Shown here: positions 3,563 through 44,570 of the stretch, piece by piece
Layout of the letters: every line of letters starts with the position of its first letter
How positions within the stretch are numbered: position 1 is the first letter of the stretch
Virus record (IMG/VR): IMGVR_UViG_3300042549_001238
Span: 1 to 50,104 of that record
Source: a virus
Direction: 5' to 3' (one strand)
Length of the DNA stretch: 50,104 nt
Notes under the pieces: generated by a model
The model's database searches: none
Told to the model about the DNA's origin: nothing
What the model saw: only the letters and a program-made list of their open reading frames with translations
Position numbers and translations under genes: made by a program

Positions 3563-6500
3563 TTAATGTTTATTATTTATCAATGACTTTAATTCTTCAA
3601 TTTGTTTTTGCTGCTCTTTGATTGCTTCGATTAATAATGGAACAAGTTTTTCGTAATTAACAGTCAGATAATTTTTACCTGACTTAGATGGGTTAGGATC
3701 TTTATCGCCATTTTTATCAAATGGTGCATGCTCTACAACTTCAGGTAATACTGCTTGAACTTCTTGAGCGATTACACCAACATCAATTCCAGTTGTAGGA
3801 TAAAAGTCCCACTTATTACATTCTTCAAGATCCCAATTAAACGTGACGCCATTAATAGACAATAGTTTTTGCAGCGCATTGTCAATATTTTTAATATTCT
3901 TTTTAATTCTAACATCTGAAGAATATGCAGTAATGTTTCCAGTAACACTTAATGCACCAGTTCTACTCAAAGATGCTCTTTGTGTTACTGTTGTTCCATT
4001 ATATGTACAAAATACTAGTATTCCATTGCTGCCTGTATCCGAATAATAAATGCTGTGCTCGTAAGCATTTCCAGCCATATCAGTACCAAGACCCATCCAC
4101 GCATTAGAATCAGCATCAAGACCATAAACTTGAAGACGCGGACCACCGAAAAATGCACCACTGATCATCATAGCTGGTAATGATGTTGACACTTTAGCAA
4201 CTTGAAATTTATAAGTTGATGTAGTTGTTCCAACACTTACATTACCACTATTATTAATGGTCATACAGTCAATGTAGCCTGATCCAGATTTAACTAAGAA
4301 TTTAAGATTACCATTAGCCCAAGCTCCTGTGGTTCCTGAAACTTTTTGCGAAACAATTGCAGCAGTTGCAACAGGATTTGCTGAACTTGACGTAGTTTCG
4401 TTTGCAGCAAATACAAGTTTAGCACCTGTATTATCTGTACCATTTTTATTATAAAGAACAACAGTAGCATCCATTTCAGTTGCAGCTGTAGAAGAACTGT
4501 CTTTTCTAAACATCGCAGCTGGACTGTGGAAATATGCTCCTGGATACATGTCATAAAAACTTGTACTGCTACTACCACCACCAATAATAAATGGACCACC
4601 ACCAGAATTGAACGTTCCATTTACTTGGGCTTGAAATGTTGGACTGCTTGTTGCAATACCAACTAATCCTCCACTTGTAATTCGCACACGTTCAGTGTCT
4701 GCTGATGTAAACACAACAGGAGCACTTGCAATACTTCCAAAATATGCTGCACTTGTTAGTGGAGAAGCAACAGAACCATTACCCCAACCAACATGAGCAG
4801 TAGCAGTTCCAGAATCATTTAAAAAGTGCATTCCACTATAACCACTAGCGGATGTGTTTTTAAATCGTGCAACAATTGCTGAAGACGCAGATGTTTCTAC
4901 ATCTAAACGAACTCCAGGGCTTGCTGTTCCAATGCCAACATTACCAGCACCATTAAGAACCATTAAATGGTCTGCAGCCCAATGTCCAAATGTTAATCGA
5001 TTACTGTCAGATCCTGGTGTTCCGCTATATGTGTATCCAATATATCCAGAATTTTTTGTTGAACCTTCTCGACCAATAACATTAAGCACTGTTTGATTTG
5101 TTGTTAAATTTGGAGCAAAACTTTCTTGAGCATGAACAAAGGTAGATGAAGAAGTTACATCTAATGCTAAACATGGATCATTGGCAGTTCCTGCACCATA
5201 AACATTTAATCTTGCAGCTGGAGAAGATGTTCCAATTCCAACATTGCCAGATGAATCAATTAAAACATTATTAGTACCGCCTCCGTTTACTCTGAACGCA
5301 ATACCTCTACTCGTTGCAGAACAAATATATAAACCATCTTCGCCAGTATTATGCGCAAAAATTCTATTTCCACCATTATTATTGCCACTAAATCCTAGCG
5401 TTGTATATCTACCAGTTCCAGAAGTTCCATAAGTTCCATCATCACCTAATGTTAAACTAGTTCCTACTGATGGTTTATAGGAAATTGTGCCAACAACTTC
5501 TAATTTTGTTGCAGGATTTGTTGTTCCGATACCAACAAAACCGCTATTTAAAATGGTCATTAAATCATTATTATCTTCTCTAAAATAGATATTTCCAGAA
5601 CCACGAGAATTTAAAAATGTATGACCGCCATTTTGCCACAATAAAACATAGTCATTGCCTGGTGTCCAGATAGCATTATATGCGCCATATGTTGGATGTT
5701 CTCCAATAGAAATATTTGTATCGGCGTCAACGTAAACATTTAATTTTCCAGTTGGACTTGTTGTTCCAAGACCTACAAGTCCACCTTCAGTGATTAAAAA
5801 TGGTGGTGTACCTTGTAATGTTTTATTTGTAATGGCAAAATTAGTGACACCAACACTATATGGATTAACACCAATAATCCATTGTCTGGTGTAAGTAGTA
5901 TCATTTCCAGGCGAACCTGTGCCACCAGCAGCAATTGCTATGGTGGATTCTCCATCGTTGGGGTTTGCAACTTGTAACTGAGCCCAACCAGAACTTGCAG
6001 ATCTAATTAGTAATTTATTTCCTTCTATATGAATTCTAGCAACACTGCTTGGTGATGTGGTGTTTATACCAATATTGCCTAGACTGTTTATAGTCATGGC
6101 GTCTACTCGCGATCCACCACTTTTAACAAAAAAGTTTAATGATCCATCAGTCCAATTACCACTTGTTCCTGCTATTTCTTTTTTCGCAATAATGCCAGCA
6201 AGATTTACTGAATTTCCTGCACCTGGAGAACTTTCAGCTGAAACGAATGCTAAACCAACTGTAGTTTGATCTGCACCACTGTTGTTATAAAGACCCAGCG
6301 CAGGTCTAAATCCATTTAATCCAGTTGTCGTGTTATCTGCTCTAAGCAATAGTGGAGGAGTATGATCGCTGGGACTTCTATATGTTGCGCCTTCCCATTG
6401 AAAAAATGATTGACCATTTATAGTTTGACCAATAACATAAGCAGGAACAGTGAGTCCAACTACAGTACCATTATCTGTTACAGTGCTGTTACCTAATGTT

Positions 6501-9088
6501 GTTGATCCTGTAAATTTCGCAAGATATCCAGAAGTTCCTCCTGGACTTACACCTGTTGCTCCTTGAACACCTTGTGCTCCCTGCACACCTTGATGACCCT
6601 GTGCTCCTTGAGCACCCTGTGCACCAACAGCACCTTGTGCACCTACAGCGCCCTGCGCTCCAACTGCTCCTTGTGCACCAACGGCACCTTGCACACCCTG
6701 TGCTCCTTGTGCTCCGACAGCACCTTGAGCACCTACCGCACCTTGTGCACCGACTGCTCCCTGAACTCCTTGGAATCCTTGTGCTCCTTGAGCACCCTGT
6801 GCACCAACAACACCTTGTGCTCCTTGAGCACCAGCATCACCTTGCGCACCTACAGATCCTTGTCGACCTTGAAAACCTTGCGCTCCTTGAAATCCTTGGT
6901 GTCCCTGTGATCCTTGAGCACCTACATCACCCTGAGCACCGATAACACCTTGATAACCTTGATTTCCTTGTGCTCCGACTACACCTTGATGCCCCTGAAA
7001 TCCTTGCGATCCTTGAGCACCTTGCGCGCCGACATCGCCTTGTGCTCCGACGTCACCTTGATGTCCCTGTGCACCTTGTACACCCTGGAATCCTTGAGCA
7101 CCCTGAACTCCTTGATGACCTTGAGAACCCTGCACTCCTTGCGCGCCTTGTACACCTTGTGCACCGACATCTCCTTGAAATCCTTGATGACCCTGCGAAC
7201 CTTGTCGACCTTGTGCTCCTTGAGCACCAGTATCACCTTTATCACCTGTTCTAGTAAAAGTGATGATCACATCTTCATTATTAGGGAATGTGCTTACTGT
7301 ATTTGATGTTGCAGTAATTGGAATGTGAAACCATCCAGGAGATGTATCTGTATGTTCATGATTTGCGCCAATAATATTGTAAAACACAAATTGTAGTATG
7401 TTCGCAGAATTTGCAATTTTCGCAACACCCTTAATAGATGATGTTGAATCATCTATAGTTTGCAAATAATTTACAATATTCGCTGAATCATTATCCAAAT
7501 AACTGATGGCGAGTGCAGTTGCATCAAACAAACTTGCGGTGTTTACTTTTAAATATCCACTCGTTGGATTTGAATGTGTTGTATCTGTTGAGAATAAGAA
7601 GTCAAACGTCGCGCCACCGAAAGATCCAGTTTCACCTTGTACACCTTGATAACCTTGTGATCCCTGTACACCCTGTGCACCTTGAATGCCTTGAGATCCT
7701 TGTGCACCTATTTCACCTTGAACTCCTTGGAATCCTTGTGCTCCTTGTCGACCTTGTGATCCTTGTACACCTTGCGATCCCTGCACGCCTTGAGAACCCT
7801 GAGCGCCTACTTCGCCTTGCACGCCTTGATGACCTTGCGATCCTACATCACCTTGTACACCCTGTGCTCCTTGCGCACCAATAGTGCCTTGCACTCCTTG
7901 AAATCCTTGCGAACCTTGTATACCTTGATGCCCCTGAGAACCTTGCGCACCGACAGCACCTTGATGACCTTGCGATCCTTGATGCCCTTCGGCACCTTGT
8001 ACACCTTGATAACCTTGTGAACCCTGAGCACCAACATCACCTTGTGCTCCTACATCTCCCTGTACACCTTGAGCACCTTGGAATCCTTGATAGCCTTGAG
8101 ATCCCTGCGCACCTTGAGCACCGACAGCACCTTGTACACCTTGATGACCCTGAGATCCTTGGAATCCTTGTGATCCCTGCACACCTTGAGCACCGACATC
8201 TCCTTGTACACCTTGTGCGCCTTGACGACCCTGAGATCCCTGGAATCCTTGATGACCTTGAGATCCTTGTGCACCCTGAACACCTTGTGCACCTTGTACA
8301 CCTTGATAACCTTGTTGACCGATACCAGCAGCTGCAGTTACAAAGTAACGCACATCAATTACATCACCAATCTCACCTGTATCGATAATTGTAATTTCAT
8401 TTGTATTCGCAAACGTGAAGTCTGTATTAGGTATAAGCGAAACACCATTTTTATATACAAACAAATGTTCAATAGCAGGTGCTGGTGTTGTCAGCGTGTA
8501 AACAAGATTTCCTGAGTTTGATGCTGCACTAAATGAATCTGAGCGAATTACAGTGTCGCTGATACCTTGCGCTCCTTGAGGTCCTGTGCTGCCTTGAACA
8601 CCCTGATAACCTTGCGCTCCTTGAGAACCTGCGATACCTTGAGCACCTTGAAATCCCTGCGCTCCCTGCACACCTTGTGCGCCAACGTTACCTTGAAATC
8701 CTTGAGATCCTTGAGCACCTTCAGTGCCTTGAGCGCCAACAGCACCTTGCGATCCTACTGCGCCTTGTACACCTTGATAACCTTGTGGACCTTGTGCTCC
8801 TGCTACACCTTGATAACCTTGAGCACCTTGCGGTCCGACAAGAGATGTGTTAGCAGTGAAAGAAATATTTGCCGATGTTCCGCTTTGAGTTACGGAAACA
8901 TTAATCGTGCTAGTATTGTTGAAATTTAAATTTGATTTGGAAACAACAAGAGAACCGTTTGCATAAACTGCAACAGTGTTCGCTGCGGCATTTGTAGTTT
9001 CCGCAGAGGCAACTCCTAGATTTGTACGAGCATCTGTGGCATTATTTGCCCCAGTTCCGCCCATAAAGACAGAAACTTTTTGTACCAT
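3563..9088 (-). CDS. Giant collagen-like tail fibre with C-terminal Peptidase_S74 chaperone
   Basis: The product is 1841 residues. Order: N-terminal attachment part (1-79), G-X-Q array (80-174), spacer, second array (258-488), beta spacer (489-614), third array (614-848), a long beta-rich head with many VGIGTTSP repeats (849-1722), and an S74 intramolecular chaperone (1723-1841). The S74 start S-S-D-V-R-I-K-K-N-I has the catalytic-type serine (Ser1724), and the domain ends in a Lys/Glu/Gln-rich coiled coil. In this family the domain helps the fibre trimerise and then cuts itself off. The gene follows the 9093 fibre by 4 bases and precedes its truncated paralogue by 12, so all are probably co-transcribed. 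Role: host recognition at the virion surface; receptor unknown. Confidence 0.88.
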   Translation of the reverse strand: MVQKVSVFMGGTGANNATDARTNLGVASAETTNAAANTVAVYANGSLVVSKSNLNFNNTSTINVSVTQSGTSANISFTANTSLVGPQGAQGYQGVAGAQGPQGYQGVQGAVGSQGAVGAQGTEGAQGSQGFQGNVGAQGVQGAQGFQGAQGIAGSQGAQGYQGVQGSTGPQGAQGISDTVIRSDSFSAASNSGNLVYTLTTPAPAIEHLFVYKNGVSLIPNTDFTFANTNEITIIDTGEIGDVIDVRYFVTAAAGIGQQGYQGVQGAQGVQGAQGSQGHQGFQGSQGRQGAQGVQGDVGAQGVQGSQGFQGSQGHQGVQGAVGAQGAQGSQGYQGFQGAQGVQGDVGAQGDVGAQGSQGYQGVQGAEGHQGSQGHQGAVGAQGSQGHQGIQGSQGFQGVQGTIGAQGAQGVQGDVGSQGHQGVQGEVGAQGSQGVQGSQGVQGSQGRQGAQGFQGVQGEIGAQGSQGIQGAQGVQGSQGYQGVQGETGSFGGATFDFLFSTDTTHSNPTSGYLKVNTASLFDATALAISYLDNDSANIVNYLQTIDDSTSSIKGVAKIANSANILQFVFYNIIGANHEHTDTSPGWFHIPITATSNTVSTFPNNEDVIITFTRTGDKGDTGAQGAQGRQGSQGHQGFQGDVGAQGVQGAQGVQGSQGHQGVQGAQGFQGVQGAQGHQGDVGAQGDVGAQGAQGSQGFQGHQGVVGAQGNQGYQGVIGAQGDVGAQGSQGHQGFQGAQGFQGRQGSVGAQGDAGAQGAQGVVGAQGAQGAQGFQGVQGAVGAQGAVGAQGAVGAQGAQGVQGAVGAQGAVGAQGAVGAQGAVGAQGAQGAQGHQGVQGAQGVQGATGVSPGGTSGYLAKFTGSTTLGNSTVTDNGTVVGLTVPAYVIGQTINGQSFFQWEGATYRSPSDHTPPLLLRADNTTTGLNGFRPALGLYNNSGADQTTVGLAFVSAESSPGAGNSVNLAGIIAKKEIAGTSGNWTDGSLNFFVKSGGSRVDAMTINSLGNIGINTTSPSSVARIHIEGNKLLIRSASSGWAQLQVANPNDGESTIAIAAGGTGSPGNDTTYTRQWIIGVNPYSVGVTNFAITNKTLQGTPPFLITEGGLVGLGTTSPTGKLNVYVDADTNISIGEHPTYGAYNAIWTPGNDYVLLWQNGGHTFLNSRGSGNIYFREDNNDLMTILNSGFVGIGTTNPATKLEVVGTISYKPSVGTSLTLGDDGTYGTSGTGRYTTLGFSGNNNGGNRIFAHNTGEDGLYICSATSRGIAFRVNGGGTNNVLIDSSGNVGIGTSSPAARLNVYGAGTANDPCLALDVTSSSTFVHAQESFAPNLTTNQTVLNVIGREGSTKNSGYIGYTYSGTPGSDSNRLTFGHWAADHLMVLNGAGNVGIGTASPGVRLDVETSASSAIVARFKNTSASGYSGMHFLNDSGTATAHVGWGNGSVASPLTSAAYFGSIASAPVVFTSADTERVRITSGGLVGIATSSPTFQAQVNGTFNSGGGPFIIGGGSSSTSFYDMYPGAYFHSPAAMFRKDSSSTAATEMDATVVLYNKNGTDNTGAKLVFAANETTSSSANPVATAAIVSQKVSGTTGAWANGNLKFLVKSGSGYIDCMTINNSGNVSVGTTTSTYKFQVAKVSTSLPAMMISGAFFGGPRLQVYGLDADSNAWMGLGTDMAGNAYEHSIYYSDTGSNGILVFCTYNGTTVTQRASLSRTGALSVTGNITAYSSDVRIKKNIKNIDNALQKLLSINGVTFNWDLEECNKWDFYPTTGIDVGVIAQEVQAVLPEVVEHAPFDKNGDKDPNPSKSGKNYLTVNYEKLVPLLIEAIKEQQKQIEELKSLINNKH
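6543..7245 (-). repeat. Collagen-like G-X-Q repeat array
   Basis: Third array of the S74 fibre, about 235 residues. It includes near-perfect GAVGAQGAVGAQ runs encoded by almost identical 18-base units around 6590-6780, a plausible site of slippage or unequal recombination. It ends at GATGVSPGGTSGYLAKF, the junction shared with the other fibre. Confidence 0.85.
7622..8314 (-). repeat. Collagen-like G-X-Q repeat array
   Basis: Second array of the S74 fibre, about 230 residues of G-X-Q, ending in GETGSFGGATF as in the paralogue. Variation at X is mostly A, V, F, Y, H, S, D and E. Confidence 0.85.
8566..8847 (-). repeat. Collagen-like G-X-Q repeat array
   Basis: First array of the S74 fibre, about 95 residues, opening GPQGAQGYQGVAGAQG after a beta-type N-terminal domain. 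Confidence 0.85.
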
Positions 9089-9092
9089 ATTC

Positions 9093-11564
9093 TTATCTTA
9101 ATGTTCTTGCTTCAATATTCAATCCGTTTGGAGGCATGAATGTGAGAGTCAATGTTGTACCAGAAACGGTGTAATCTTCAGTTGGTAGAATTGTCACACC
9201 ATCAATCGTAACAAGAATATTATTTACGCTTGATACAGATGACGAGAGTGTATAAGTGTTTGTGCTACCATTTGTTGTAAATCGAGAACTGACTGCATTG
9301 GTTGCTGCAAACGAAACATTCGCATTAGATCCAGCTCCAGTTACTGTAACTGCAATCGATGATGTGTTATTAAAGGATAATACATTCGCTGAAACAGTAG
9401 AACCAGAATTAGCAGTGACTCTTACAGCTGCATTGTTCGCAGCATTATACGCAAGATTGGCTTGATTGTATGCAGCTGAAACGTCTATAACAGTCGCAAC
9501 AGAATTTCCAGATAATAAAATGCTATTAGCATTAATATTAGCACGAAGTGTTGCTAGGTTTGTGTTAGCAAAATCAATAACATTTGATTGATGCCCTGCG
9601 TCTGGTAAATTGTCAAACAAGTACCAAGTGCCATCGGAAGCATCGCGAGCAAGACCAGTATGTGTTGTTTGCGGACCATTATTTTTTGCAGCAACAAATC
9701 CAAGATCAACTGTGTCGCTAATTGTATTATTTGAACCAAGATAAATTAACGCATCATCAACAACGAATGTTGCTACGTTGATGAAGGTTGTGTTACCAGA
9801 TAGATAAATGTTACCACTCGTAACATTCAAATCACCGCTAATATTAAGTGATCCGCTGAGCGAACCACCTGTTAAACTTAATTTAGAATTTGCTGCACTA
9901 TAAGCAGCATTTGCTTGCCCATATGCATTAGTAGCGATTAGATATAATCCATTCGCAATGTTCGCAGTTGCAGCAGCAGTTACGTTTCCTTGCGCAGTAT
10001 ATGTGTCGTTGACAATAACTTGCGGAGCAGCAGTAAACGAGATATTTGCATTCGTGCCATTTTGTTCTACAGTAACAGATACAGTTGCTGTATTATTAAA
10101 TGATAATGTATTCGCAGAGAACGATGCGCCTGAGTTTGCTGTTACTTTAACTGCTGCATTATTTGCAGCATCATAGGCTAGATTTGCTTGCGCATAGGCA
10201 TTATTCGCTTGAAGTCTGGCTGCATTCGCTTGACCATAAGCAGAAGTTGCAATGATGTAGCCAATTCCTGCAGTAACATTCGCAGTGTTTGCTTGATCAT
10301 AAGCATTTTGAGCAATCGATGTTGCTGTGTTCGCCTGACTATATGCATTGTTTGCTTGTGTATACGCTGCGTTTGCTTGATTATAAGCAGCATTTGCTTG
10401 AGCATAAATGGTTGCACTATTAGTTTCGATAACAATGTTACCGACCATTCCGCTATGCACTGTACACTGATAAACATATGCATTACCTTGTAGCGCATAA
10501 GGAATTTTCCAGTACAGTTTACCACTGACTTTACCTTGTGCGCTAGACCCAGTGCTTACAGTGCCATTTGTTGCAACGTGAGTTAATCCTGTGTCATAAT
10601 TTGCGCCGCCACTTGACACACGAATCGTAAATGGATGCCCTGCATTATTTAAATTAAACGCAATGGTTTCACCAGCGCGAACATATATTGCAGGATTATC
10701 TACTGTGCCGTACTGATCAAATCGATATGCTGTTGCGCCGTTATTCGTCACTGCCAATTCAGTTACAGCTGGCTGATAGTCTGAATTTGCTTGAGCATAT
10801 GCAGCGTTGGCTAACGAATATGCTAGGTTTGCTTGATTGAACGCACCATTAGCAGTTGTGTTTGCATTAATTGCAGTGTTGTTCGCATCAACAGCAATAT
10901 TGTATCCAGTGTTTGCTTGATTATATGCATCGCGCGCGATTTGAAAACTGTAAAAATTACCATTAACATCAGACCAACCCCAATTATCTGTGCTTTCGTC
11001 CCAGCGAAGAAACACATTGGTTGAGTTACCGCGATTAACAGTAATGCTAGCATTAAGAGTTGGTGTTCCAGTTAAACTGGAATTTAAAATAATTTCGTTG
11101 TCTTCAACGCTTAACGTTTCTACATTAAGTGTTGTTGTGTTGCCAGAGACAGTTAGATTGCCATCAATCGTCAAACTGCCTGTGATTGTGCCACCAGCAA
11201 TATTAAGTTTTAAATTAGCCTGATCGAATACTGAGTTTGCTTGAGCGTAAGCAAGATTCGCTATGTTATATGCAGATGTAGAAACGAGATATACAGCATT
11301 AACTGAGTTTGGTGTGGCTGCGCGTGTGACACTATTGGAAGTCACTGTGTCGTTTAGTTGAACAACACCAGCTTGATTCACATTTGCTGAATTGGCGGAA
11401 ATGGTACCAGTTAATGTAATCGGACCGCCAGTTAAACCGTTACCAGTGGCGAGGTTTGTAATGCCGCCATCGCCAGTTGTCGCGACTACACGATCACCAC
11501 GAACTTTGTTCGCACCAATTGTAGCAGCAGTAGTTGTATTACTTGTGGTAACTTTAATCTTCAT
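9093..11564 (-). CDS. Tail fibre protein with embedded cupredoxin (amicyanin-like) domain
   Basis: The product is 823 residues. It starts MKIKVTTSN with a beta-rich attachment region, then alanine-rich heptads of the type AY-QAN-A (for example AYNQANAAYTQANNAYSQAN), which suggest a trimeric coiled coil. Around 265-385 lies a globular insert with cupredoxin sequence: A-G-H-P-F-T-I-R (His310) and Y-Q-C-T-V-H-S-G-M-V-G (Cys367, His370, Met373). The spacing C-x2-H-x2-M is that of amicyanin. More coiled-coil and beta modules follow. The segment NTTTLNVETLSVEDNEIILNS is shared in type with the collagen-like fibres, showing module exchange. Probable virion fibre or its proximal part. Copper binding is predicted only from the residues. 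Confidence 0.8.
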   Translation of the reverse strand: MKIKVTTSNTTTAATIGANKVRGDRVVATTGDGGITNLATGNGLTGGPITLTGTISANSANVNQAGVVQLNDTVTSNSVTRAATPNSVNAVYLVSTSAYNIANLAYAQANSVFDQANLKLNIAGGTITGSLTIDGNLTVSGNTTTLNVETLSVEDNEIILNSSLTGTPTLNASITVNRGNSTNVFLRWDESTDNWGWSDVNGNFYSFQIARDAYNQANTGYNIAVDANNTAINANTTANGAFNQANLAYSLANAAYAQANSDYQPAVTELAVTNNGATAYRFDQYGTVDNPAIYVRAGETIAFNLNNAGHPFTIRVSSGGANYDTGLTHVATNGTVSTGSSAQGKVSGKLYWKIPYALQGNAYVYQCTVHSGMVGNIVIETNSATIYAQANAAYNQANAAYTQANNAYSQANTATSIAQNAYDQANTANVTAGIGYIIATSAYGQANAARLQANNAYAQANLAYDAANNAAVKVTANSGASFSANTLSFNNTATVSVTVEQNGTNANISFTAAPQVIVNDTYTAQGNVTAAATANIANGLYLIATNAYGQANAAYSAANSKLSLTGGSLSGSLNISGDLNVTSGNIYLSGNTTFINVATFVVDDALIYLGSNNTISDTVDLGFVAAKNNGPQTTHTGLARDASDGTWYLFDNLPDAGHQSNVIDFANTNLATLRANINANSILLSGNSVATVIDVSAAYNQANLAYNAANNAAVRVTANSGSTVSANVLSFNNTSSIAVTVTGAGSNANVSFAATNAVSSRFTTNGSTNTYTLSSSVSSVNNILVTIDGVTILPTEDYTVSGTTLTLTFMPPNGLNIEARTLR

Positions 11565-11569
11565 TTAAT

Positions 11570-11905
11570 TTACTGCGTAATTTGTGGAAAAACTGTTATA
11601 ATGCCCTCTACAACTCTGGATTTGGTGCTGTCTGCTCTTACCATTTTGATATCATAAAGATATCTTCCTGCACGAATGTTTGCAGTTGTTGCAGCGTTCA
11701 TGGAAAGAACAACATTTCCGCTTGCGGCATTGGCAACAGTTACCGTTAGATTAGCAGTAACATTAGATGAATAATATGATTTGCGAATAGAGGAACTAAA
11801 CGTATAGTTTGTGACGTTTATGGTGCTTCCATCGTCATTGGTAAGGTCTAAATTTACAGTAAAATCTGTACCTTGGTCGCAGGAAAGCTCTAAAAAACTA
11901 GCCAT
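11570..11905 (-). CDS. Small beta-rich structural protein, unknown function
   Basis: The product is 111 residues, starting MASFLELSCDQGTDF. The pattern of short beta strands and turns (a 'polarised' N-terminus, then ...AGRYLYDIKMVRADS... and ...VVEGIITVFPQ) resembles the N-terminal baseplate/fibre-attachment domains of BppU-like proteins, but I cannot name a family. It lies 5 bases upstream of the cupredoxin fibre gene in the same direction, so it is probably co-expressed and may be a fibre adaptor. The start is supported by TTTAGGA seven bases before the ATG. A small hairpin overlaps that site. Confidence 0.65.
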   Translation of the reverse strand: MASFLELSCDQGTDFTVNLDLTNDDGSTINVTNYTFSSSIRKSYYSSNVTANLTVTVANAASGNVVLSMNAATTANIRAGRYLYDIKMVRADSTKSRVVEGIITVFPQITQ

Positions 11906-12080: not shown

Positions 12081-13031
12081 TTAGTCCGTTTTATCTGGGA
12101 TTACCCAATCGACTTCGATATTTGGTTTAATTGCGTTTGTCAAAGCACGTTTTTCAATCTTTCTGTTTATATAATCGACTCCAGAGTAGCGCCTAAACTC
12201 CTCAAAGACTACGTCGTCCACAGAATCAATGAACCGTCTAAATTCTAAATCTGATCTATATTTTCTTTCTTGTATAACTTCATCTGAGACTATAGGATTA
12301 TAGTCCTGTTTAGAAGTATGTTGATTAGATCCAATATAATGGTAACAATTAATCTGTTTACCGTGAAAGATTGAATAGCCAACCATAAACGAAGAAAGAA
12401 CCATAATTTGTTCTTCCCCATGAAAAAAGATTTTTGGATTTATCCCAACATTATTAATCCAATCTGCATGAGTGAACATGTTGCCTGCAAAAATATGGCT
12501 GGCTGGCATAACACTAGTAGTTGGATTGGTATGTTCGCCGTGAGCAAATAACGAAAGACTTTTATCAAATTGATAAAATTTGGCTATACAAGCAACATTT
12601 TTATTGTGCTCAAGTTTAACATGTCCTTCGACGAGATTGAAATTTTTACAATTAGATGATATGACTACTTTATTTGAGTTAGCAATTAAACAGCCCTCTT
12701 TGTAATCATTAATTAGTTGCCTATCCCAGTTGTTATCAAATACCATGTGAGAATCAATTTGATAATAAAAATCCTCATCAGTTAATTGTAAAGCATTAAT
12801 GTTTCTCGCCCACCCAACGCCCTCAGAATATTGTGGGTCAATTCTCTTATACTTTACATCAGGTCTTGATATTAATTCTGGATGCAGTGTTTCTAAACTA
12901 TTTTCTTTTTCTGTTTGTTCGAATATTCCATATACTACTTCAGCAAGCGAGGACTTACTTTGAATTAGAGATTTTAGTGTGTAAACTAACAGTGGATCTC
13001 TATATGAGCATATGCTTACAAATATTTTCAT
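12081..13031 (-). CDS. GT60-type GlcNAc transferase (glycosyltransferase, Skp1 GnT1-like)
   Basis: The product is 316 residues. The N-terminus MKIFVSICSYRDP is the typical first strand of the GlcNAc-transferase family (PF11397, CAZy GT60). G-V-G-W-A-R (71-76) and Y-Y-Q-I-D-S-H-M (89-96) follow, where D93-S-H95 is the DXD-like metal/UDP-sugar site. A later F-F-H-G-E-E motif is also typical. In Dictyostelium a GT60 enzyme adds GlcNAc to a hydroxyproline of Skp1. The start overlaps the stop of the upstream gene by 4 bases, so it is the last gene of the cassette begun by the 2OG oxygenase. The substrate could be a virion or host protein; donor and acceptor are inferred from family only. Confidence 0.75.
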   Translation of the reverse strand: MKIFVSICSYRDPLLVYTLKSLIQSKSSLAEVVYGIFEQTEKENSLETLHPELISRPDVKYKRIDPQYSEGVGWARNINALQLTDEDFYYQIDSHMVFDNNWDRQLINDYKEGCLIANSNKVVISSNCKNFNLVEGHVKLEHNKNVACIAKFYQFDKSLSLFAHGEHTNPTTSVMPASHIFAGNMFTHADWINNVGINPKIFFHGEEQIMVLSSFMVGYSIFHGKQINCYHYIGSNQHTSKQDYNPIVSDEVIQERKYRSDLEFRRFIDSVDDVVFEEFRRYSGVDYINRKIEKRALTNAIKPNIEVDWVIPDKTD

Positions 13032-13879
13032 TCTTTATCTTCTTTTGGTTGTTGATTAGGATCTTCTTCCACTCTATCTAATGTAAAACTTTTTTTAATA
13101 TTATGGTTTTTTCTATAAAATTGATTCTCATGTATTTTTGGATCATATGAGAGTATACTTTTTTGTTCGATATTAGGTGGACCGTATCCACACTCAATGT
13201 GTCTATTGTAAAACGGTATCACATGCAATAGGGGTTCCCCTGCTTTGATTGTATACTCACATTTTTTTCTTGGTGCTAAAATTGCATTCATAGTATGAAA
13301 TGTATTATAGTCAACTATGCCAGGATAAACATAAAAATTTTCAAGAAATTCTGGACTTGAATGATACCATGCAGGTAATATTAACGCTGAAATATCTTTA
13401 TCATAACTAAAGATTTTCCATGGAGAATTTATATTAAATGGTCGTAGAGGAATGCCATCTTGAATGTTAAAGATACCATCGACTATGTCACTAGCCATTG
13501 GAACAGGATCTCTAAATGGAGAACTTCGTTTACCACCCCCAGCATAGGCGATACAACCTGCTTTGTTTATTTTAAAATGAAAATCTGCCCAACACGGAAC
13601 AATATATCCTAATCTAGAATAATCAAACATCCCAGGGCATAGTGGAAATGTAAATTTATTTCCTAGGTCCTCAACATGTTTTCTAGAATTGACTGGAACA
13701 TCTTTTGCTAATTTGATTGGCAAACTGGCAAATACCAACTCAGAAGAATCAATAAATTCTAGTTTATTTTTTTGCAAAGGAGATTGAATTACTGTTGAGT
13801 TAGAAACTTCTATTTCTTCTTCAACTGAAGTTGATTCATAAAGAGGTTTTTTAGATTTAAAAATATTAAAAAGATTCAT
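13028..13879 (-). CDS. DUF6065-like protein of unknown function (copy B)
   Basis: The product is 283 residues. The first ~80 are Ser/Glu/Lys-rich and probably disordered. The rest aligns by eye with the neighbouring 246-residue protein: L-G-Y-I-V-P-C-W-A-D-F-H matches L-G-Y-V-I-P-L-C-G-D-L-H, and Y-P-G-I-V-D-Y ... A-G-E-P-L-L-H-V-I-P-F matches L-S-G-L-V-D-T-D ... A-G-T-P-L-V-T-A-I-P-I. The pattern (aromatic strand, GIV-D, AG-PL-P) resembles DUF6065 as I recall it. It overlaps both neighbours by 4 bases, so it is translationally coupled in the hydroxylase/glycosyltransferase cassette. No catalytic role can be assigned. Confidence 0.6.
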   Translation of the reverse strand: MNLFNIFKSKKPLYESTSVEEEIEVSNSTVIQSPLQKNKLEFIDSSELVFASLPIKLAKDVPVNSRKHVEDLGNKFTFPLCPGMFDYSRLGYIVPCWADFHFKINKAGCIAYAGGGKRSSPFRDPVPMASDIVDGIFNIQDGIPLRPFNINSPWKIFSYDKDISALILPAWYHSSPEFLENFYVYPGIVDYNTFHTMNAILAPRKKCEYTIKAGEPLLHVIPFYNRHIECGYGPPNIEQKSILSYDPKIHENQFYRKNHNIKKSFTLDRVEEDPNQQPKEDKE

Positions 13880-14616
13880 TTCTTAACTCTCAATTCATTT
13901 GTATAAACATGCATTCTACTGTGTTGTTGCTTTTTAATTGTTTCAATAGTGTTAAAATCGTCATCCGTCATTTTTCTAATTTTTGGTTTTTTATCAAATG
14001 TATTACGTTTAATTGGAATAGCAGTTACTAGTGGTGTTCCTGCAGAAATAATACCATCAAAACCAGGCTTATTCCAGATTGCAGGAAAATTAACTTCTTT
14101 TGGATATTTGTCTGTATCTACCAGCCCACTTAAACAAGTAAATGGTTGATCAATATGATTCATTGGTGGCACAAACAATGTTGACCAACCAGGAGCAGTT
14201 TTAACGATCCAATGATTCACAAACTTAATCGGATGTAATGGAAATCTTGGCGCATTTTCACCCCCTAATTGATCTACTGAATGAAATTCAGCAAGTTTTA
14301 AACCAGGTGGATTGTGAGTTTTAATTTCCGTCATATCAGGATCAACTTGAACATGAAGATCACCGCACAATGGGATTACATATCCTAGGGACATTGCATC
14401 AATCAACGGCAAACATTTTTTTGCACTCATTGAAGGAACATTGAACATAGTATCCCTTTTATCTGGGAGAGTTGGTGGCAAAATTCTAAACCATTCTGGT
14501 AGATATTTTATTGCTGGTTTAGGTTCTGGAATCACACCACTTAAATCTGGATGGCAATAAAACTCAATGACATCGTTACCCCAAAATTTAAATATATTGC
14601 GCAATGTATTCAACAT
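13876..14616 (-). CDS. DUF6065-like protein of unknown function (copy A)
   Basis: The product is 246 residues with an IEFYCHPDLSG start region, then L-G-Y-V-I-P-L-C-G-D-L-H near residue 78, T-A-P-G-W-S-T-L-F-V-P-P and G-I-I-S-A-G-T-P-L-V-T. These match my memory of DUF6065 (APGWS-L, PP-N, G-V-TD, G-P--P). It is the tandem paralogue of the next gene. Its ATG overlaps the end of the 2OG oxygenase gene by 7 bases and its stop overlaps the next start by 4. The context suggests a part in the same modification of a protein, but the function is unknown. Confidence 0.65.
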   Translation of the reverse strand: MLNTLRNIFKFWGNDVIEFYCHPDLSGVIPEPKPAIKYLPEWFRILPPTLPDKRDTMFNVPSMSAKKCLPLIDAMSLGYVIPLCGDLHVQVDPDMTEIKTHNPPGLKLAEFHSVDQLGGENAPRFPLHPIKFVNHWIVKTAPGWSTLFVPPMNHIDQPFTCLSGLVDTDKYPKEVNFPAIWNKPGFDGIISAGTPLVTAIPIKRNTFDKKPKIRKMTDDDFNTIETIKKQQHSRMHVYTNELRVKK

Positions 14617-15200
14617 GATCGCTTACCCATAATCCAAGTAACTAATGATTTACGGACACCAGACTTCACTGGCACCACTCTGTGTGGCATCCAAGAAGCA
14701 AAAAATACAACGGATCCGATTGGTGGCTTTAGAGATATTGGTTTTTCAATGTTACCATCAGTAACTATTTCGAATTCACCACCACCATATTTTGATGGGT
14801 CAGATAACAAAATTATTGCGCTCATTTTGCGTTCATAATTTTGATACTCAGTAAAGCAATCAAAATGCCAATTATAATGTTGTTTTGCTTTATATTTTGT
14901 GTATTGAAAGGCATCAAATCCATCGATATCATACATAAAATTAGCATGATTCACTTGAGCCATCAACCAACTGAATTTATCAAACAACCATTTTGACTCT
15001 GGTGATGGAATAAGCCAGGATATTTCGCTGTCTCGATAATCCTTGTTGATTTTTCCACCATTATCTACACCAAGTTTTCCTTCTGAGAAAGTTTGTAGTT
15101 CTTCTAAGTCGATGATCTTTTCGATTTCTTCTGGTGTGAAGTAACTTTCGTTGATTGAAAATTGTGGTAATGGGCGAATATATTTTACAAATGTGGGCAT
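14610..15200 (-). CDS. 2OG-Fe(II) oxygenase, prolyl-hydroxylase (PKHD) type
   Basis: The product is 196 residues from the ATG at 15200. I prefer this to a TTG at 15212 because TTGGAG lies six bases before the ATG. It has the facial triad H112-x-D114 (N-W-H-F-D-C-F) and H173 (W-M-P-H-R), with R183 ten residues later (G-V-R-K-S-L) to bind 2-oxoglutarate, as in the PKHD/prolyl 4-hydroxylase fold. The GGGEFEIV strand is also typical. Such enzymes hydroxylate protein side chains using O2 and 2-oxoglutarate. They are common in marine T4-like phages but their substrates are unknown. It is first in a four-gene cassette ending in a GlcNAc transferase and lies just after a Pro-rich repeat protein gene, its possible substrate. 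Confidence 0.85.
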   Translation of the reverse strand: MPTFVKYIRPLPQFSINESYFTPEEIEKIIDLEELQTFSEGKLGVDNGGKINKDYRDSEISWLIPSPESKWLFDKFSWLMAQVNHANFMYDIDGFDAFQYTKYKAKQHYNWHFDCFTEYQNYERKMSAIILLSDPSKYGGGEFEIVTDGNIEKPISLKPPIGSVVFFASWMPHRVVPVKSGVRKSLVTWIMGKRSC

Positions 15201-15223
15201 AACAAACTCCAATTTTAAATCAT

Positions 15224-15252
15224 ATTATACTATAGTTCTTTAAATTATTCAA
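15224..15252 (-). promoter_or_regulatory. Sigma70-like promoter of the modification cassette
   Basis: On the minus strand TTGAAT (15252-15247), a 17-base spacer and a perfect TATAAT (15229-15224) lie in the small gap before the oxygenase gene, with the -35 in the end of the upstream coding region. The transcript would start near 15217, about 17 bases before the ATG, leaving room for the TTGGAG site. It would allow host-polymerase expression of the cassette apart from the late genes. Confidence 0.6.
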
Positions 15253-17074
15253 CCTTCACTACTATATATCCACCTGTTGGAACTGCAACAGGATATGTTG
15301 CATTGTCTGGATAATCCCAATAATTTGTAACTGTTTCAGAAACATATGGAGCAACTGCACCAACTCCACCGCCTGGGAAATATACACCAAGAACTGTAGT
15401 TGGTGTTCCTGGGTTTCCAGGAACATATGGATAACTGTTTACAGTGTTATAACTTGCAGGTACAAACGGATAATTCGTTACCGTATTATAACTTGCTGGA
15501 GTAGTATTGTAACTTGCATTTACATACGGATAACTAACTGGTGTATATGGATAACTAACTGGTGTATATGGATAACTGACTGGTGTGTAAGGGTAACTGA
15601 CTGGCGTGTATGGATAATTCGTTACTGTGTTGTAACTTGCTGGAACTGTGTTATAACTTGCTGGAGTAGTATTGTAACTCGCGTTTACATATGGATAACT
15701 TGCTGCTGTATACGGATAATTTGTCACAGCTGCATTATAACTTGCAGGTACAAATGGATAGTTAGTGACTATGTTATAACTGCTTGGAACAATGTTATAA
15801 CTTGGAGCCACATATGGATAATTTGTCACAGCTGCATTATAACTTGCAGGTACAAATGGATAGTTCGTCACTGTGTTGTAACTTGCATTTACATATGGGT
15901 AATTTGTTACCGTGTTATAACTTGCTGGAGTAGTATTGTAACTCGCGTTTACATACGGATAACTGACAGGTGTGTATGGGTAACTTGTTGGCGTGTATGG
16001 ATAGTTCGTCACTACAGAATTATAACTTGCTGGTGTGTATGGATAATTAGTTGTGCAACTATATGTTACTGAATAATAAGTTAGAAAATAACCTCCAGAA
16101 AGAAATCCACCAAAATTCGGAAACGAGTAGTATCCAAATGGGTAATTATAAGGGTTTGGTGGTGTGTTTGCAGGTATCTGTGGTCCTAGATCGGCATAAC
16201 CATCAGGTGGGCAACTAGTTCCAGATCCGCTGCCTGGATAACTTGCTGAATAGAATGCATAATTTTGCTCGTCGAATACTTCTTCATAAAGTGTTGAATT
16301 CCAATTAACAACAGTATTGTAACTTGCAGGTACATATGGATAGTTCGTTACTGTGTTGTAACTTGCTGGAACTGTGTTATAACTTGCTGGAGTAGTATTG
16401 TATGAAGCAGGAACAAACGGATAACTGACTGGCGTGTATGGATAGTTTGTTACCGTATTATATCTTGCTGCTGTATATGGATAGTTCGTGACTGTGTTGT
16501 AACGTGCATTAACATATGGGTAATTTGTTACCGTGTTATAACTTGCAGGTACAAACGGATAACTATCTGGTGTATATGGATAATTTTGAACGGTGTTGTA
16601 ACTTGCATTTACATATGGGTAATTTGTTACCGTGTTATAACTTGCTGGAACTGTGTTATAACTTGCAGGCACAAATGGATAACTAGCAGGTGTGTATGGG
16701 TAACTGACTGCTGTATATGGATAATTCGTTACTGTGTTGTAACTTGCTGGAGTAGTATTGTAACTTGCTGGAGTAGTATTGTAACTTGCTGGAACTGTGT
16801 TGTAACTTGCTGGAGTAGTATTGTATGAAGCAGGAACAAACGGATAACTGACAGGTGTGTATGGATAATTCGTTACTGTGTTGTAACTTGCTGCTGTATA
16901 CGGATAATTTGTTACTGTGTTATATGATGGTGCAACACCAGAACCACCGCGACCACTCACTGATGTTTTGTTTCTACCATAAGCAATATTAATATTGCCA
17001 CTGGCATTGAATGTGGTAGTTCCTCTGGAAGACCCAGGAATCCATGTTTTATTTAAATCAAAACTACGAGGCAT
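15245..17074 (-). CDS. Tyr/Pro/Asn/Thr repeat protein, probable virion fibre component
   Basis: The product is 609 residues, dominated by repeats of about 6-7 residues: ASYNTVT, NYPYTP, VSYPFVP, ASYNTTP, NASYNTV. The N-terminus (MPRSFDLNKTWIPGSSRG) and C-terminus (PTGGYIVVKVE) are not repetitive, and a Gly/Tyr-rich segment with two cysteine regions interrupts the middle. Every repeat carries Tyr, most carry Pro, and Asn/Ser/Thr are frequent. It resembles hydroxyproline-rich wall proteins in composition but not in family. It sits 3 bases from the upstream fibre gene's stop and directly before the hydroxylase/GlcNAc-transferase cassette. The likely role is a long extended virion fibre and perhaps a substrate of that cassette. 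No known domain was recognised. Confidence 0.75.
   Translation of the reverse strand: MPRSFDLNKTWIPGSSRGTTTFNASGNINIAYGRNKTSVSGRGGSGVAPSYNTVTNYPYTAASYNTVTNYPYTPVSYPFVPASYNTTPASYNTVPASYNTTPASYNTTPASYNTVTNYPYTAVSYPYTPASYPFVPASYNTVPASYNTVTNYPYVNASYNTVQNYPYTPDSYPFVPASYNTVTNYPYVNARYNTVTNYPYTAARYNTVTNYPYTPVSYPFVPASYNTTPASYNTVPASYNTVTNYPYVPASYNTVVNWNSTLYEEVFDEQNYAFYSASYPGSGSGTSCPPDGYADLGPQIPANTPPNPYNYPFGYYSFPNFGGFLSGGYFLTYYSVTYSCTTNYPYTPASYNSVVTNYPYTPTSYPYTPVSYPYVNASYNTTPASYNTVTNYPYVNASYNTVTNYPFVPASYNAAVTNYPYVAPSYNIVPSSYNIVTNYPFVPASYNAAVTNYPYTAASYPYVNASYNTTPASYNTVPASYNTVTNYPYTPVSYPYTPVSYPYTPVSYPYTPVSYPYVNASYNTTPASYNTVTNYPFVPASYNTVNSYPYVPGNPGTPTTVLGVYFPGGGVGAVAPYVSETVTNYWDYPDNATYPVAVPTGGYIVVKVE
15435..16950 (-). 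repeat. Degenerate tandem repeats encoding (A/V)SYNTV-TNYPYTP units
   Basis: Units of 18-21 bases recur many dozens of times in phase with the reading frame, with small sets of near-identical blocks (for example the four successive copies of a VSYPYTP codon block near 15530-15615). The interruption at about 16040-16310 is unique sequence. Array size is likely to vary between related phages. Confidence 0.8.
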
Positions 17075-17076
17075 AA

Positions 17077-19626
17077 TTATCTCGCGTCTTTAACAGCAAG
17101 TGTTCCGATGAATGTCGATCCGCCATCATATGTTGTAAACGTCCAAAGATCTCTTGCGCTGGCGCTGGTTGTTGCAGGAGGAACTTGCCCACCTGCCCAG
17201 TAAATTGTGTTAGCCCATGTTGGTGTTTTACTGCCAGTTCCATCTTGAAGAATGACTAGCGTTACTGTAAATCCAGTTCCAGAAGTAGGTGCATTGGTAA
17301 ATGTAATTTGTCTGTTTCCAGCAGTACTGGTGAGTGTTAGTTTATACCAGTTTGACACTGACAAATCTACTGTCTTACTTCCTGTAACATTCGTGTCTTC
17401 AGTGATAGAATCTTTGTATGCCTTTAATGTGCCACCGAATGTGCCGCTTGCCAGTGCCCAACGAACTGAGTTTGCAGTTGGAACATTAACGAGGCTAGTA
17501 GATGTAAACGAATCAACAACATTGGCGATTGTAATAATTGTATTAAGAGTTGCGTCGCTACCACCTGCTCTCCAAACACCAAGTGTTTCTGACCATTGCA
17601 CTGAGGCATTTGCAGTTGCTGATCCACGGCGAACAGTAAAATAGCCATCGCGTGCTGCTGTAGGAACTTCGTTTAGAATAATTCTATCAGAAGTTGTAAC
17701 TGATGGTTGCGATAATGTAAACGTACCTGAAACACTGAGGTTTTTAAATACACCGTTACCACGTTCAATATAGAACGATTCAGTTGACGACGTTTGAATA
17801 TAATATGCGAATAAGTTTTTTCCTTGCGGAATATACACATTATCAGTCACATACAACTGATTGCGCACATTTACAGTGCCAGTTGGAGAACCAAGAACGA
17901 CATTAGCAGCAGCACCACCAACATTTAATGCAGTTGTCGATGTATTTCCAAGATTAAAAGTTGCTGGACCAGTAAGATCTCCACCATCAACATCAATATC
18001 ACCAACCACGTTTAAATCATTTCTTACGTTAGTTGTGCCGACTAACGAACCCATCGTTAGCTGCGTAGCAGCACCAGCAAAATTTACCGTTGTTGCAGTT
18101 GTATTAGCAAGATTAAATGCAGAAGTTGAAACAGTTAAATCGCCACCGTCGATGTTTACATCACCATCAACATCGAGATTGTTGTTGATGTTTGTTGTTC
18201 CAGAGGCAGCACCAATCTCAACTGTTGTAGCAGCGCCACCAAGATTTAGTGTTGTTGTCGTGGTGTTTAATAGGTTTGCTGTAGCAGTAGAAGTAATGTC
18301 TCCACCAGATACAACTAGATCACCAGCAGCAGTCACTGTACCAGCAGCTGCACCCATGTTTAATGCAGTTGCAGCACCACCAAAATTTAGTGTTGTTGTG
18401 GTTGTATTAAGTAGATTTGCTGTAGTAGTGGAAGTAATGTCTCCGCCATCAACATCAAGATCACCTGTGACGTTTAAATTATTTTTAACGTCTGTAGTTC
18501 CGCTAGATGCACCCATATTGAGTGTAGTTGCTGCGCCACCGAAATTTAAAGTTGTGGTTGTTGTATTAACTAGATTTGCTGTAGCAGTAGAAGTAATATC
18601 ACCACCAGATACAGTTAAATCACCAGCGACAGTTGTATCACCAGAAGATGCAGTTACATTAAATCTATCGGATCCAACTTTGAAGTCGCCAGTTACGTTT
18701 GCAGTACCAGAAATTGTGGCGTTTTGCGAGACAGTTGCATTTTTAGAAACTGCTAGATTACTTGAAAGCGTTGTGTTTCCAGTTACATCTAATGTGTTAC
18801 TTAATGTAACTGCACCAGTAACTGCTGCCGTACCAGTAACTGCTAGATTTTGGCTAATTGTAGTGTTCTTTGAGACAGCAAGATTACTTGAAAGGGTTGT
18901 GTTTCCAGTTACATCTAATGTATTGCTGAGTGTAGTTGCCCCAGTAACTGCTGCTGTGCCAGTAACTGCTAGGTTTTGACTGATCGCTGTATTTTTAGAT
19001 ACAGACAAATTGCTTGACAGTGCAGTGTTACCTGTTACATCTAGAGTATTACCTAATGTTGTAACACCAGTAACATCAGCAGTTCCAGTGACTGCTAGGT
19101 TTTGGCTAATTGTTGTGTTTTTAGAAACTGCAAGATTAGAAGAAAGTGTAGTGTTTCCTGTAACTCCTAATGTTCCAGATAAAGTAGAATTTTGAGATAC
19201 TGTTAGATTAGAAAATAATTGTGTGTTACCAACAACATCTAATCTTGAAACAACGTTAAGAGTTCCAGTAACATTTGCGTTTTGAGAGATGGTTGTATTT
19301 TTAGAAACAGCAAGATTACCAGTAATAACTGTGTTACCAGTAACAGATAATTGATTAGCGACCGAAGCGTCATCACCTACGATAAGATCTGATGTGGTTG
19401 TTGTACCACCAACAATGGCATCACCACCAGAACCAACGGTTAACAGCGTACCACCACCAGAGCGGTCAATAACAACAGCGCCATTGGCGATTGTAAAATT
19501 AGAGTTGTCTTTTACATATGGGTGATTGCGAAGAATGTTTCGATCTACAACCAGATCATTTGTGCGTGTACGCCATTCATCGAATGTGTTCGTAACTGCA
19601 ATAACAGATATATTTGCGTTAGCCAT
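17077..19626 (-). CDS. Repetitive tail fibre / structural protein
   Basis: The product is 849 residues. After ~60 unique residues come repeats of about 14 residues alternating TLSSNLAVSKNTTISQ and NLAVTGTAAVTGA types (about 70-320). A second set of about 48 residues follows (DVDGGDITSTATANLLNTTT-type, about 330-600), with a non-repetitive C-terminal domain that ends FIGTLAVKDAR. Alternating polar/valine periodicity suggests a beta-helix or triple beta-spiral fibre shaft. The start is supported by AGAGGA a few bases upstream and overlaps the previous gene's stop by 8 bases. Probable tail fibre; receptor unknown. Confidence 0.75.
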   Translation of the reverse strand: MANANISVIAVTNTFDEWRTRTNDLVVDRNILRNHPYVKDNSNFTIANGAVVIDRSGGGTLLTVGSGGDAIVGGTTTTSDLIVGDDASVANQLSVTGNTVITGNLAVSKNTTISQNANVTGTLNVVSRLDVVGNTQLFSNLTVSQNSTLSGTLGVTGNTTLSSNLAVSKNTTISQNLAVTGTADVTGVTTLGNTLDVTGNTALSSNLSVSKNTAISQNLAVTGTAAVTGATTLSNTLDVTGNTTLSSNLAVSKNTTISQNLAVTGTAAVTGAVTLSNTLDVTGNTTLSSNLAVSKNATVSQNATISGTANVTGDFKVGSDRFNVTASSGDTTVAGDLTVSGGDITSTATANLVNTTTTTLNFGGAATTLNMGASSGTTDVKNNLNVTGDLDVDGGDITSTTTANLLNTTTTTLNFGGAATALNMGAAAGTVTAAGDLVVSGGDITSTATANLLNTTTTTLNLGGAATTVEIGAASGTTNINNNLDVDGDVNIDGGDLTVSTSAFNLANTTATTVNFAGAATQLTMGSLVGTTNVRNDLNVVGDIDVDGGDLTGPATFNLGNTSTTALNVGGAAANVVLGSPTGTVNVRNQLYVTDNVYIPQGKNLFAYYIQTSSTESFYIERGNGVFKNLSVSGTFTLSQPSVTTSDRIILNEVPTAARDGYFTVRRGSATANASVQWSETLGVWRAGGSDATLNTIITIANVVDSFTSTSLVNVPTANSVRWALASGTFGGTLKAYKDSITEDTNVTGSKTVDLSVSNWYKLTLTSTAGNRQITFTNAPTSGTGFTVTLVILQDGTGSKTPTWANTIYWAGGQVPPATTSASARDLWTFTTYDGGSTFIGTLAVKDAR

Positions 19627-44331: not shown

Positions 44332-44570
44332 CCTTCCGTGACAGATCCCTCAAGGACTATTACGGAAACATGTTTACGATGGTACATCAATACAAATACA
44401 CTCTCACAGAACTAGAAAATATGATTCCGTGGGAGCGAGATACTTACATAGGCATGGTAAACAATTGGGTTAAGGAAGAAACTGAGAGAGCCAAAAAAAT
44501 GAAAACTGAACAAGAAGCCAGATTAAGTGCATTAACGCGAAAGCGTAATCAAGGAGTCAAGAGAAGATAA
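43576..44570 (+). CDS. -1 frameshift fusion of gp26-type protein (331 residues, predicted)
   Basis: Reading T TTT TTT at 44319-44325 and slipping one base back continues in the -1 frame without interruption to the stop at 44570. The first 250 residues are those of the short form, then Y-L-T-F-R-D-R-S-L-K-D-Y-Y-G-N and the rest of the downstream ORF (MFTMVHQYKY ... ENMIPWERD ... coiled-coil Lys/Glu end). The join reads naturally as a continuation of GLNDFF, and the extension is a helical piece like T4 gp51-type hub factors. It matches the lambda gpG/gpGT arrangement upstream of the tape measure gene. It is a prediction from sequence, and efficiency is unknown. Confidence 0.7.
44319..44325 (+). 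promoter_or_regulatory. Slippery heptamer T_TTT_TTT for -1 frameshifting
   Basis: Seven Ts are in exact X_XXY_YYZ phase with the zero frame (GAT TTT TTT ACT TAA). They lie one codon before the stop. Both tRNAs (Phe, Phe) can re-pair after a one-base slip, and translation then continues for 81 codons. Confidence 0.7.
44334..44367 (+). promoter_or_regulatory. Stem-loop downstream of the slippery site
   Basis: TTCCGT (44334-44339) and ACGGAA (44362-44367) form a perfect 6-bp stem with a 22-base loop. It starts 8 bases after the slippery heptamer, the usual distance for a frameshift stimulator. CCTT (44332-44335) and AAGG (44352-44355) give an alternative or pseudoknot-like pairing. Confidence 0.5.
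44370..44570 (+). CDS. Downstream frame of the chaperone gene (independent start doubtful)
   Basis: An ATG at 44370 opens a 66-residue ORF (MFTMVHQYKYTLTELENM, then a charged helix). There is no good Shine-Dalgarno site, and the same frame already reads protein-like sequence back to the slippery run. I therefore take it as the extension of the gp26-type protein rather than a separate gene. The stop overlaps the tape-measure start by one base (TAATG). Confidence 0.6.
   Translation: MFTMVHQYKYTLTELENMIPWERDTYIGMVNNWVKEETERAKKMKTEQEARLSALTRKRNQGVKRR

Follow-up and report, generated by a model that had tools for sequence, protein, structure and literature searches.

In the viral DNA stretch that we analyzed (IMG/VR virus record IMGVR_UViG_3300042549_001238, positions 1-50,104; this whole stretch of 50,104 nucleotides is called the window), a 609 amino acid repeat protein, here named REP, is encoded together with a 2-oxoglutarate (2OG)-Fe(II) oxygenase, two DUF6065-type proteins (DUF6065a and DUF6065b) and a GT60-family N-acetylglucosamine (GlcNAc) transferase. 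This REP-oxygenase-DUF6065 pair-GT60 cassette is a conserved module of many uncultivated T4-like phages, and it suggests that the phages which carry it chemically decorate one of their virion proteins. The reading that we prefer, and regard as somewhat probable, is that the cassette is a phage-encoded maturation system dedicated to the neighbouring REP. What the analysis shows are the genes, motifs, synteny, co-duplication and a fold prediction; the substrate, the modified residue, the order of the steps, the role of the DUF6065 pair and the location of REP in the virion are parts that we infer.

Viral contigs were scanned with GT60 and with DUF6065 as anchors and not with REP, which makes the test of the REP linkage less circular. 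From the DUF6065 scan the best 80 of 249 matching stretches were used, so that the most distant relatives are unsampled, and the pooled set, which includes a few loci first fetched via REP, gave 50 DUF6065a clusters at 95% identity. REP was recognised in 46 of these 50 clusters. Of the other four, one belongs to a contig whose sequence stops 218 bp upstream of the oxygenase; the remaining three are distant homologues, one with DUF6065a on its own (L073; related loci are given by L numbers) and two next to another kind of repeat protein, which has an FFAPPG array (L074 and L076). A preliminary description of this DNA had taken many phages having the cassette but no repeat protein as the case that would speak against it; this case was sought and was not found among the close relatives. 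The REP homologues in IMG/VR are only 36-54% identical and are followed by the same genes up to the contig ends, and since the same order is kept at this divergence the recurrence goes beyond chance.

The module occupies three genomic positions: among fibre genes, as in the window; upstream of gp13/gp14/gp15-type neck genes and the terminase (L028, L031); and upstream of the tail-tube-cap, hub and gp6 genes (L035). In L020-L024 and L037 it is divided into REP'-2OG'-GT60 and REP''-2OG''-DUF6065a-DUF6065b, with each REP followed by its own oxygenase, and the duplicated paralogues group into matching clades in both trees, that of the oxygenases and that of REP ends. In L230-L233 the GT60 gene precedes the oxygenase gene and REP still lies within the module. 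A functional link between REP and the enzymes is supported by its presence in 46 of the 50 clusters, together with an adjacency that survives relocation and duplication.

All five genes of the cassette are present on the minus strand where the preliminary description had placed them. The transcription order is a fibre-type protein, REP, the oxygenase, DUF6065a, DUF6065b, GT60, a small fibre-assembly-like gene and further fibre genes. Neighbouring enzyme genes overlap by 4-7 bp and 44 bp separate REP from the oxygenase; judged from this spacing, REP and the enzyme genes appear to be one transcription unit. Matches to the late promoter TATAAATA in the window are not above chance, and no promoter evidence for the single unit claimed earlier was found.

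REP (15245..17074, minus strand) is rich in Tyr, Asn, Pro and Thr; it contains 106 Tyr and 84 Pro (14% Pro), and its gene holds tandem repeats of 21, 39 and 42 bp, which bears out the earlier account of a Tyr/Pro repeat protein. The protein has a conserved N-cap (approximately residues 1-48), a conserved C-cap (approximately the last 60 residues) and a non-repeat central island (approximately 254-342), with repeats of 7- and 13-residue units between them; the caps are kept in relatives. In the predicted model the caps are mostly of high confidence, while the repeats have a pLDDT of ~33. The repeats are long and probably flexible, and the conserved end caps are predicted to be β-rich. Confidence in the model is limited to the end caps and a portion of the central island, and a fold search against the PDB gave no match; among isolate phages REP had no match either, also when the search used just its two end caps and allowed E values up to 1. 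Homology of the N-cap to cyanophage Gly-rich proteins was considered and rejected as weak (hhalign E 0.02, probability 2%). From its gene position and its end caps REP seems to be a virion-type protein. The duplicated variant has its first REP divided between two genes, and in L020 the N-terminal part ends in a Pfam-scored Hint/intein-like domain (L020:3790-6006); the tails of L022:3572-5848 and L021:747-1769 resemble this end by eye, and the L074:3088-4401 protein has an apparent Hint-like C-terminal domain that Pfam does not score.

The oxygenase open reading frame (ORF) spans 14610-15212 on the minus strand. An ATG at 15200, preceded by ttggag, is probably the true start and gives a 196 amino acid protein (14610..15200). 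In this form the ligands are exactly the H112, D114, H173 and R183 of the preliminary description (H116/D118/H177/R187 in full-ORF numbering). The protein scores 63.6 bits with PF13640 (cutoff 27), and its profile matches in the PDB are PKHD hydroxylases and prolyl 4-hydroxylases (P4H). The HxD...H...R set is kept in the window oxygenase and in 61 of 66 distinct oxygenases of relatives. In five paralogues that adjoin GT60 in duplicated loci (L020, L021, L022, L024 and L037), the distal Fe-ligand His is replaced by Ala or Ser, with HxD and Arg kept; these paralogues may be docking pseudo-enzymes.

The GT60 protein (12081..13031, minus strand) scores 104 bits with PF11397 (cutoff 21). Its D93-S94-H95 is invariant in 17 GT60 sequences, and the DSH motif, which we take to be tied to GT60 catalysis, is kept in relatives. 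The GT60 member Gnt1 requires a hydroxyproline acceptor (PMC6939170), whereas some GT60 enzymes of T. cruzi transfer GlcNAc to ordinary polypeptide (PMC6939170, PMC8724618), so glycosylation need not depend on a hydroxyl. Distant or lone GT60s also occur (L038-L053, L228, L229) and GT60 alone is therefore not diagnostic of the module.

DUF6065a (13876..14616, minus strand) scores 39.3 bits with PF19541 (cutoff 26.6). DUF6065b (13028..13879, minus strand) has no Pfam match and belongs, like DUF6065a, to phrog_7084; profile comparison shows that the two are homologous (E 3.8e-15), in agreement with the paralogous pair described before. The AlphaFold2 model of DUF6065a (pLDDT 87) has dUTPases and dCTP deaminase as its top matches in the PDB (E 3.6e-4, target TM 0.69). 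Profile alignment of DUF6065 with seven dUTPases brings motifs 2, 3 and 4, in dUTPase numbering, into register with E 1.2e-4 (control 0.39) and a probability of only 55%. The aligned pairs are GWSTLFVPP / AMMLPRSGLG for motif 2, GLVDTDKY / GLIDSDY with the catalytic Asp for motif 3 (D167 in DUF6065a; DUF6065b has a conserved PG.VDY) and AGTPLVTAIPI / PGERIAQMIFV for motif 4. Motif 5, the C-terminal Gly-rich one, was not seen: the hhalign match stops at motif 4 and the C-terminus shows no Gly-rich stretch. A search of the PDB with the DUF6065 sequence profile matched no dUTPase chain. We therefore call the predicted fold, which is new here, dUTPase-like and not dUTPase, because of the 55% probability and the unseen motif 5. 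In haloviruses DUF6065 adjoins ribonucleotide reductase (RNR) or thymidylate synthase, which fits a nucleotide-related ancestry, and in cyanophages tryptophan halogenases on one side and 2OG oxygenases on the other flank a weak DUF6065-like gene that follows the tail-fibre region. The true dUTPase family PF00692 was not found in the contigs of five relatives, which are fragments, and a literature search found no paper that mentions DUF6065.

Another question is which residue would be modified. Lys is ruled out as the target since it makes up a median of 0% of REP cores. Pro is common in REP but not constant: it is absent from 62% (L028) and 81% (L230) of 12-residue repeat windows, the corresponding figure for Asn being 4% in both, and the L028 and L230 oxygenases keep all Fe/2OG ligands. 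With nearly Pro-free repeats beside intact ligands, Pro is unsupported as the general hydroxylated residue. The preliminary proposal that the enzymes modify REP thus keeps its support from the linkage and loses Pro as a general target. Tyr-Asn is the commonest repeat core, yet YN is missing from L071, and a short L118 protein has repeats with no Tyr. All the repeat families inspected contain Asn, so its hydroxylation is the best common denominator; from the repeat sequences Asn is the likeliest common target, with Tyr or Pro possible and lineages that may differ.

The mechanism that we propose is that the cassette enzymes, made alongside REP, would act on its flexible repeats ahead of assembly or in the course of it. 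The P4H-like oxygenase would hydroxylate many repeat side chains, most likely Asn, and GT60 would add GlcNAc onto the new hydroxyl or onto existing Thr/Ser. The DUF6065 pair may be an accessory for nucleotide binding or processing (e.g. of a uridine nucleotide) or an oligomeric scaffold, and the end caps would fasten REP to the fibre apparatus. REP would thereby become a bristle or adhesive, hydroxylated and glycosylated, on the tail-fibre apparatus. If this is true, phages would hydroxylate and glycosylate a protein of the fibre region as a strategy for building adhesive or shielded fibres. The DUF6065 family also gains a predicted fold. Marine T4-like phages commonly carry 2OG oxygenases, which are largely unexplained; one paper discusses them in relation to nitrogen metabolism and 2OG (PMC3037559). 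The constant REP partner offers a concrete candidate substrate.

Some relatives add a second oxygenase family, a PhyH protein, a methyltransferase or sulfotransferase-like genes, as expected of a modification island. In L071:4451-11316 a Tyr/Pro repeat protein without YN is found with a 2OG oxygenase, the DUF6065 pair, a JmjC protein and a 2OG-FeII_Oxy_5 protein. In L074:3088-11127 the FFAPPG-array protein is followed by two DUF6065-like proteins and several 2OG-FeII_Oxy_3-type oxygenases. A broader idea, which we put forward tentatively and think more apt to fail than to hold, is that these represent undescribed, widespread phage 'fibre-maturation islands', in which a virion repeat protein would travel with its own hydroxylase, with GT60, JmjC, methyltransferase or sulfotransferase enzymes and with a dUTPase-fold pair repurposed for protein modification, Asn and not Pro being the common hydroxylation target. 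Sulfotransferase-like genes lie inside or beside the module at L025:5273-5923, L028:5153-5845 and L031:11527-12285, and suggest sulfation of Tyr or of the glycan.

Several observations weigh against a system dedicated to REP. Two other genes separate REP from the oxygenase in L025 and L028, and no GT60 was seen in the L071 and L122 loci. No single chemistry fits all the relatives, because the REP-type protein of L118 is nearly without Tyr and the repeats of L230 and L028 have little Pro. Oxygenases of this family are generic among marine phages, where they are mostly found with no REP, the assignment of REP to the virion has two bases, gene position and end caps, and the co-occurrence could be partly vertical inheritance of a linked block.

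One alternative, which we consider unlikely, is a Skp1-like pathway as suggested by the preliminary description, where the oxygenase forms hydroxyproline in REP and GT60 attaches α-GlcNAc there. The P4H/PKHD-type oxygenase, a GT60 of the family whose member Gnt1 needs hydroxyproline (PMC6939170) and the 14% Pro of the window REP are all in line with it. However, relatives with nearly Pro-free repeats retain the same enzymes and ligands, some modules are without GT60, and the GT60-adjacent oxygenase paralogue of duplicated loci lacks the distal His. The Skp1 pathway (PhyA and Gnt1) of Dictyostelium and Toxoplasma likewise joins a 2OG oxygenase to a GT60 GlcNAc-transferase, but its substrate is a cytoplasmic eukaryotic protein modified at a single site, while here a phage operon has a repeat protein and an extra DUF6065 pair. 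Since GT60s also use plain polypeptide, the oxygenase beside GT60 in duplicated loci has lost its distal His and no GT60 is seen at L071 and L122, the analogy is limited to the enzyme families and demonstrates no pathway; Skp1-type hydroxyproline-GlcNAc is one option for the window and not the rule.

It is less probable that the enzymes act on the adjacent long fibres or collagen-like arrays with REP as a mere neighbour. The cassette is flanked by fibre genes and relatives carry large collagen-like proteins just downstream; the constant partner, however, is REP and not a fibre, and in the contig DNA of L031 and L035, where the cassette lies beside REP, no collagen array was detected. In the window, the Gln-rich, 1841 amino acid collagen-like fibre (3563-9088) has 188 Gly-X-Y triplets with 3 X-Pro and 0 Y-Pro, nearly Pro-free as described earlier, and in arrays of relatives the Pro ratio X:Y is 191:3 and similar. 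A Bacillus P4H prefers Pro at Y and can also use X (PMC8968730), and with Pro almost exclusively at X these arrays are poor P4H substrates.

Slightly more doubtful again is conserved synteny without functional coupling, by which tail modules move or are inherited as units. The cases with enough context are T4-like phages and the trees are broadly congruent, but vertical inheritance alone is a weak explanation because the module has three genomic settings and REP is kept through splitting and rearrangement (GT60 first in L230-L233, two REPs, two oxygenases). Hypermodification of DNA or nucleotides, with the oxygenase and GT60 acting on bases and DUF6065 as a dUTPase relative, would fit the dUTPase-like fold and the halovirus neighbours but is very improbable given the PKHD/P4H profile, the polypeptide-acting GT60 family, the tail-fibre location beside REP and a window where no base-modification genes were seen; a Tet/JBP search gave no match, but its control likewise gave no signal, so that this negative carries no weight.

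Compared with known systems, a dedicated modification of REP resembles Mimivirus collagen hydroxylation and glycosylation and the B. anthracis BclA with its P4H, where an own repeat surface protein is modified (PMC8968730), but those substrates are collagen Gly-X-Y and the REP repeats are non-collagen. Mycobacteriophage virion proteins carry glycans (Freeman et al. 2023, cited in PMC12619734); the targets there are capsid and tail-tube proteins, and no hydroxylase is described. The islands of cyanophages Syn9 (L057) and S-RIM44 (L058), in or after the tail-fibre region, share 2OG oxygenases and a DUF6065-like gene with the cassette but have Gly-rich proteins and two tryptophan halogenases, and neither REP nor GT60 was seen in them; virion proteins may be a substrate of these halogenases too. 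The T. cruzi α-GlcNAc-transferases of mucin-type initiation are of the same GT60 family and act on polypeptide, but are eukaryotic, and we know of no oxygenase linked to them.

Recent transfer of the cassette, judged by composition, was considered and rejected, as its GC3 resembles that of neighbouring genes. A search with defence-system models gave a single match, to a generic 2OG model, and the genome-contig scan gave one short contig binned with a Chitinophagaceae metagenome-assembled genome, not taken as host evidence. Two tail-region ORFs have no PHROG match (857 amino acids at 44570-47143, plus strand; 656 amino acids at 34340-36310, minus strand). Baseplate, tail and fibre genes of T4-like type are present in the window. 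Around the cassette, all on the minus strand, a fibre/structural protein (17077..19626) lies immediately upstream of REP and is the same neighbour in many relatives, a small protein with 'L-shaped tail fiber protein assembly' family matches (11570..11905) lies immediately downstream of GT60, and a phrog_677-like tail-fibre protein is encoded at 9093..11564.

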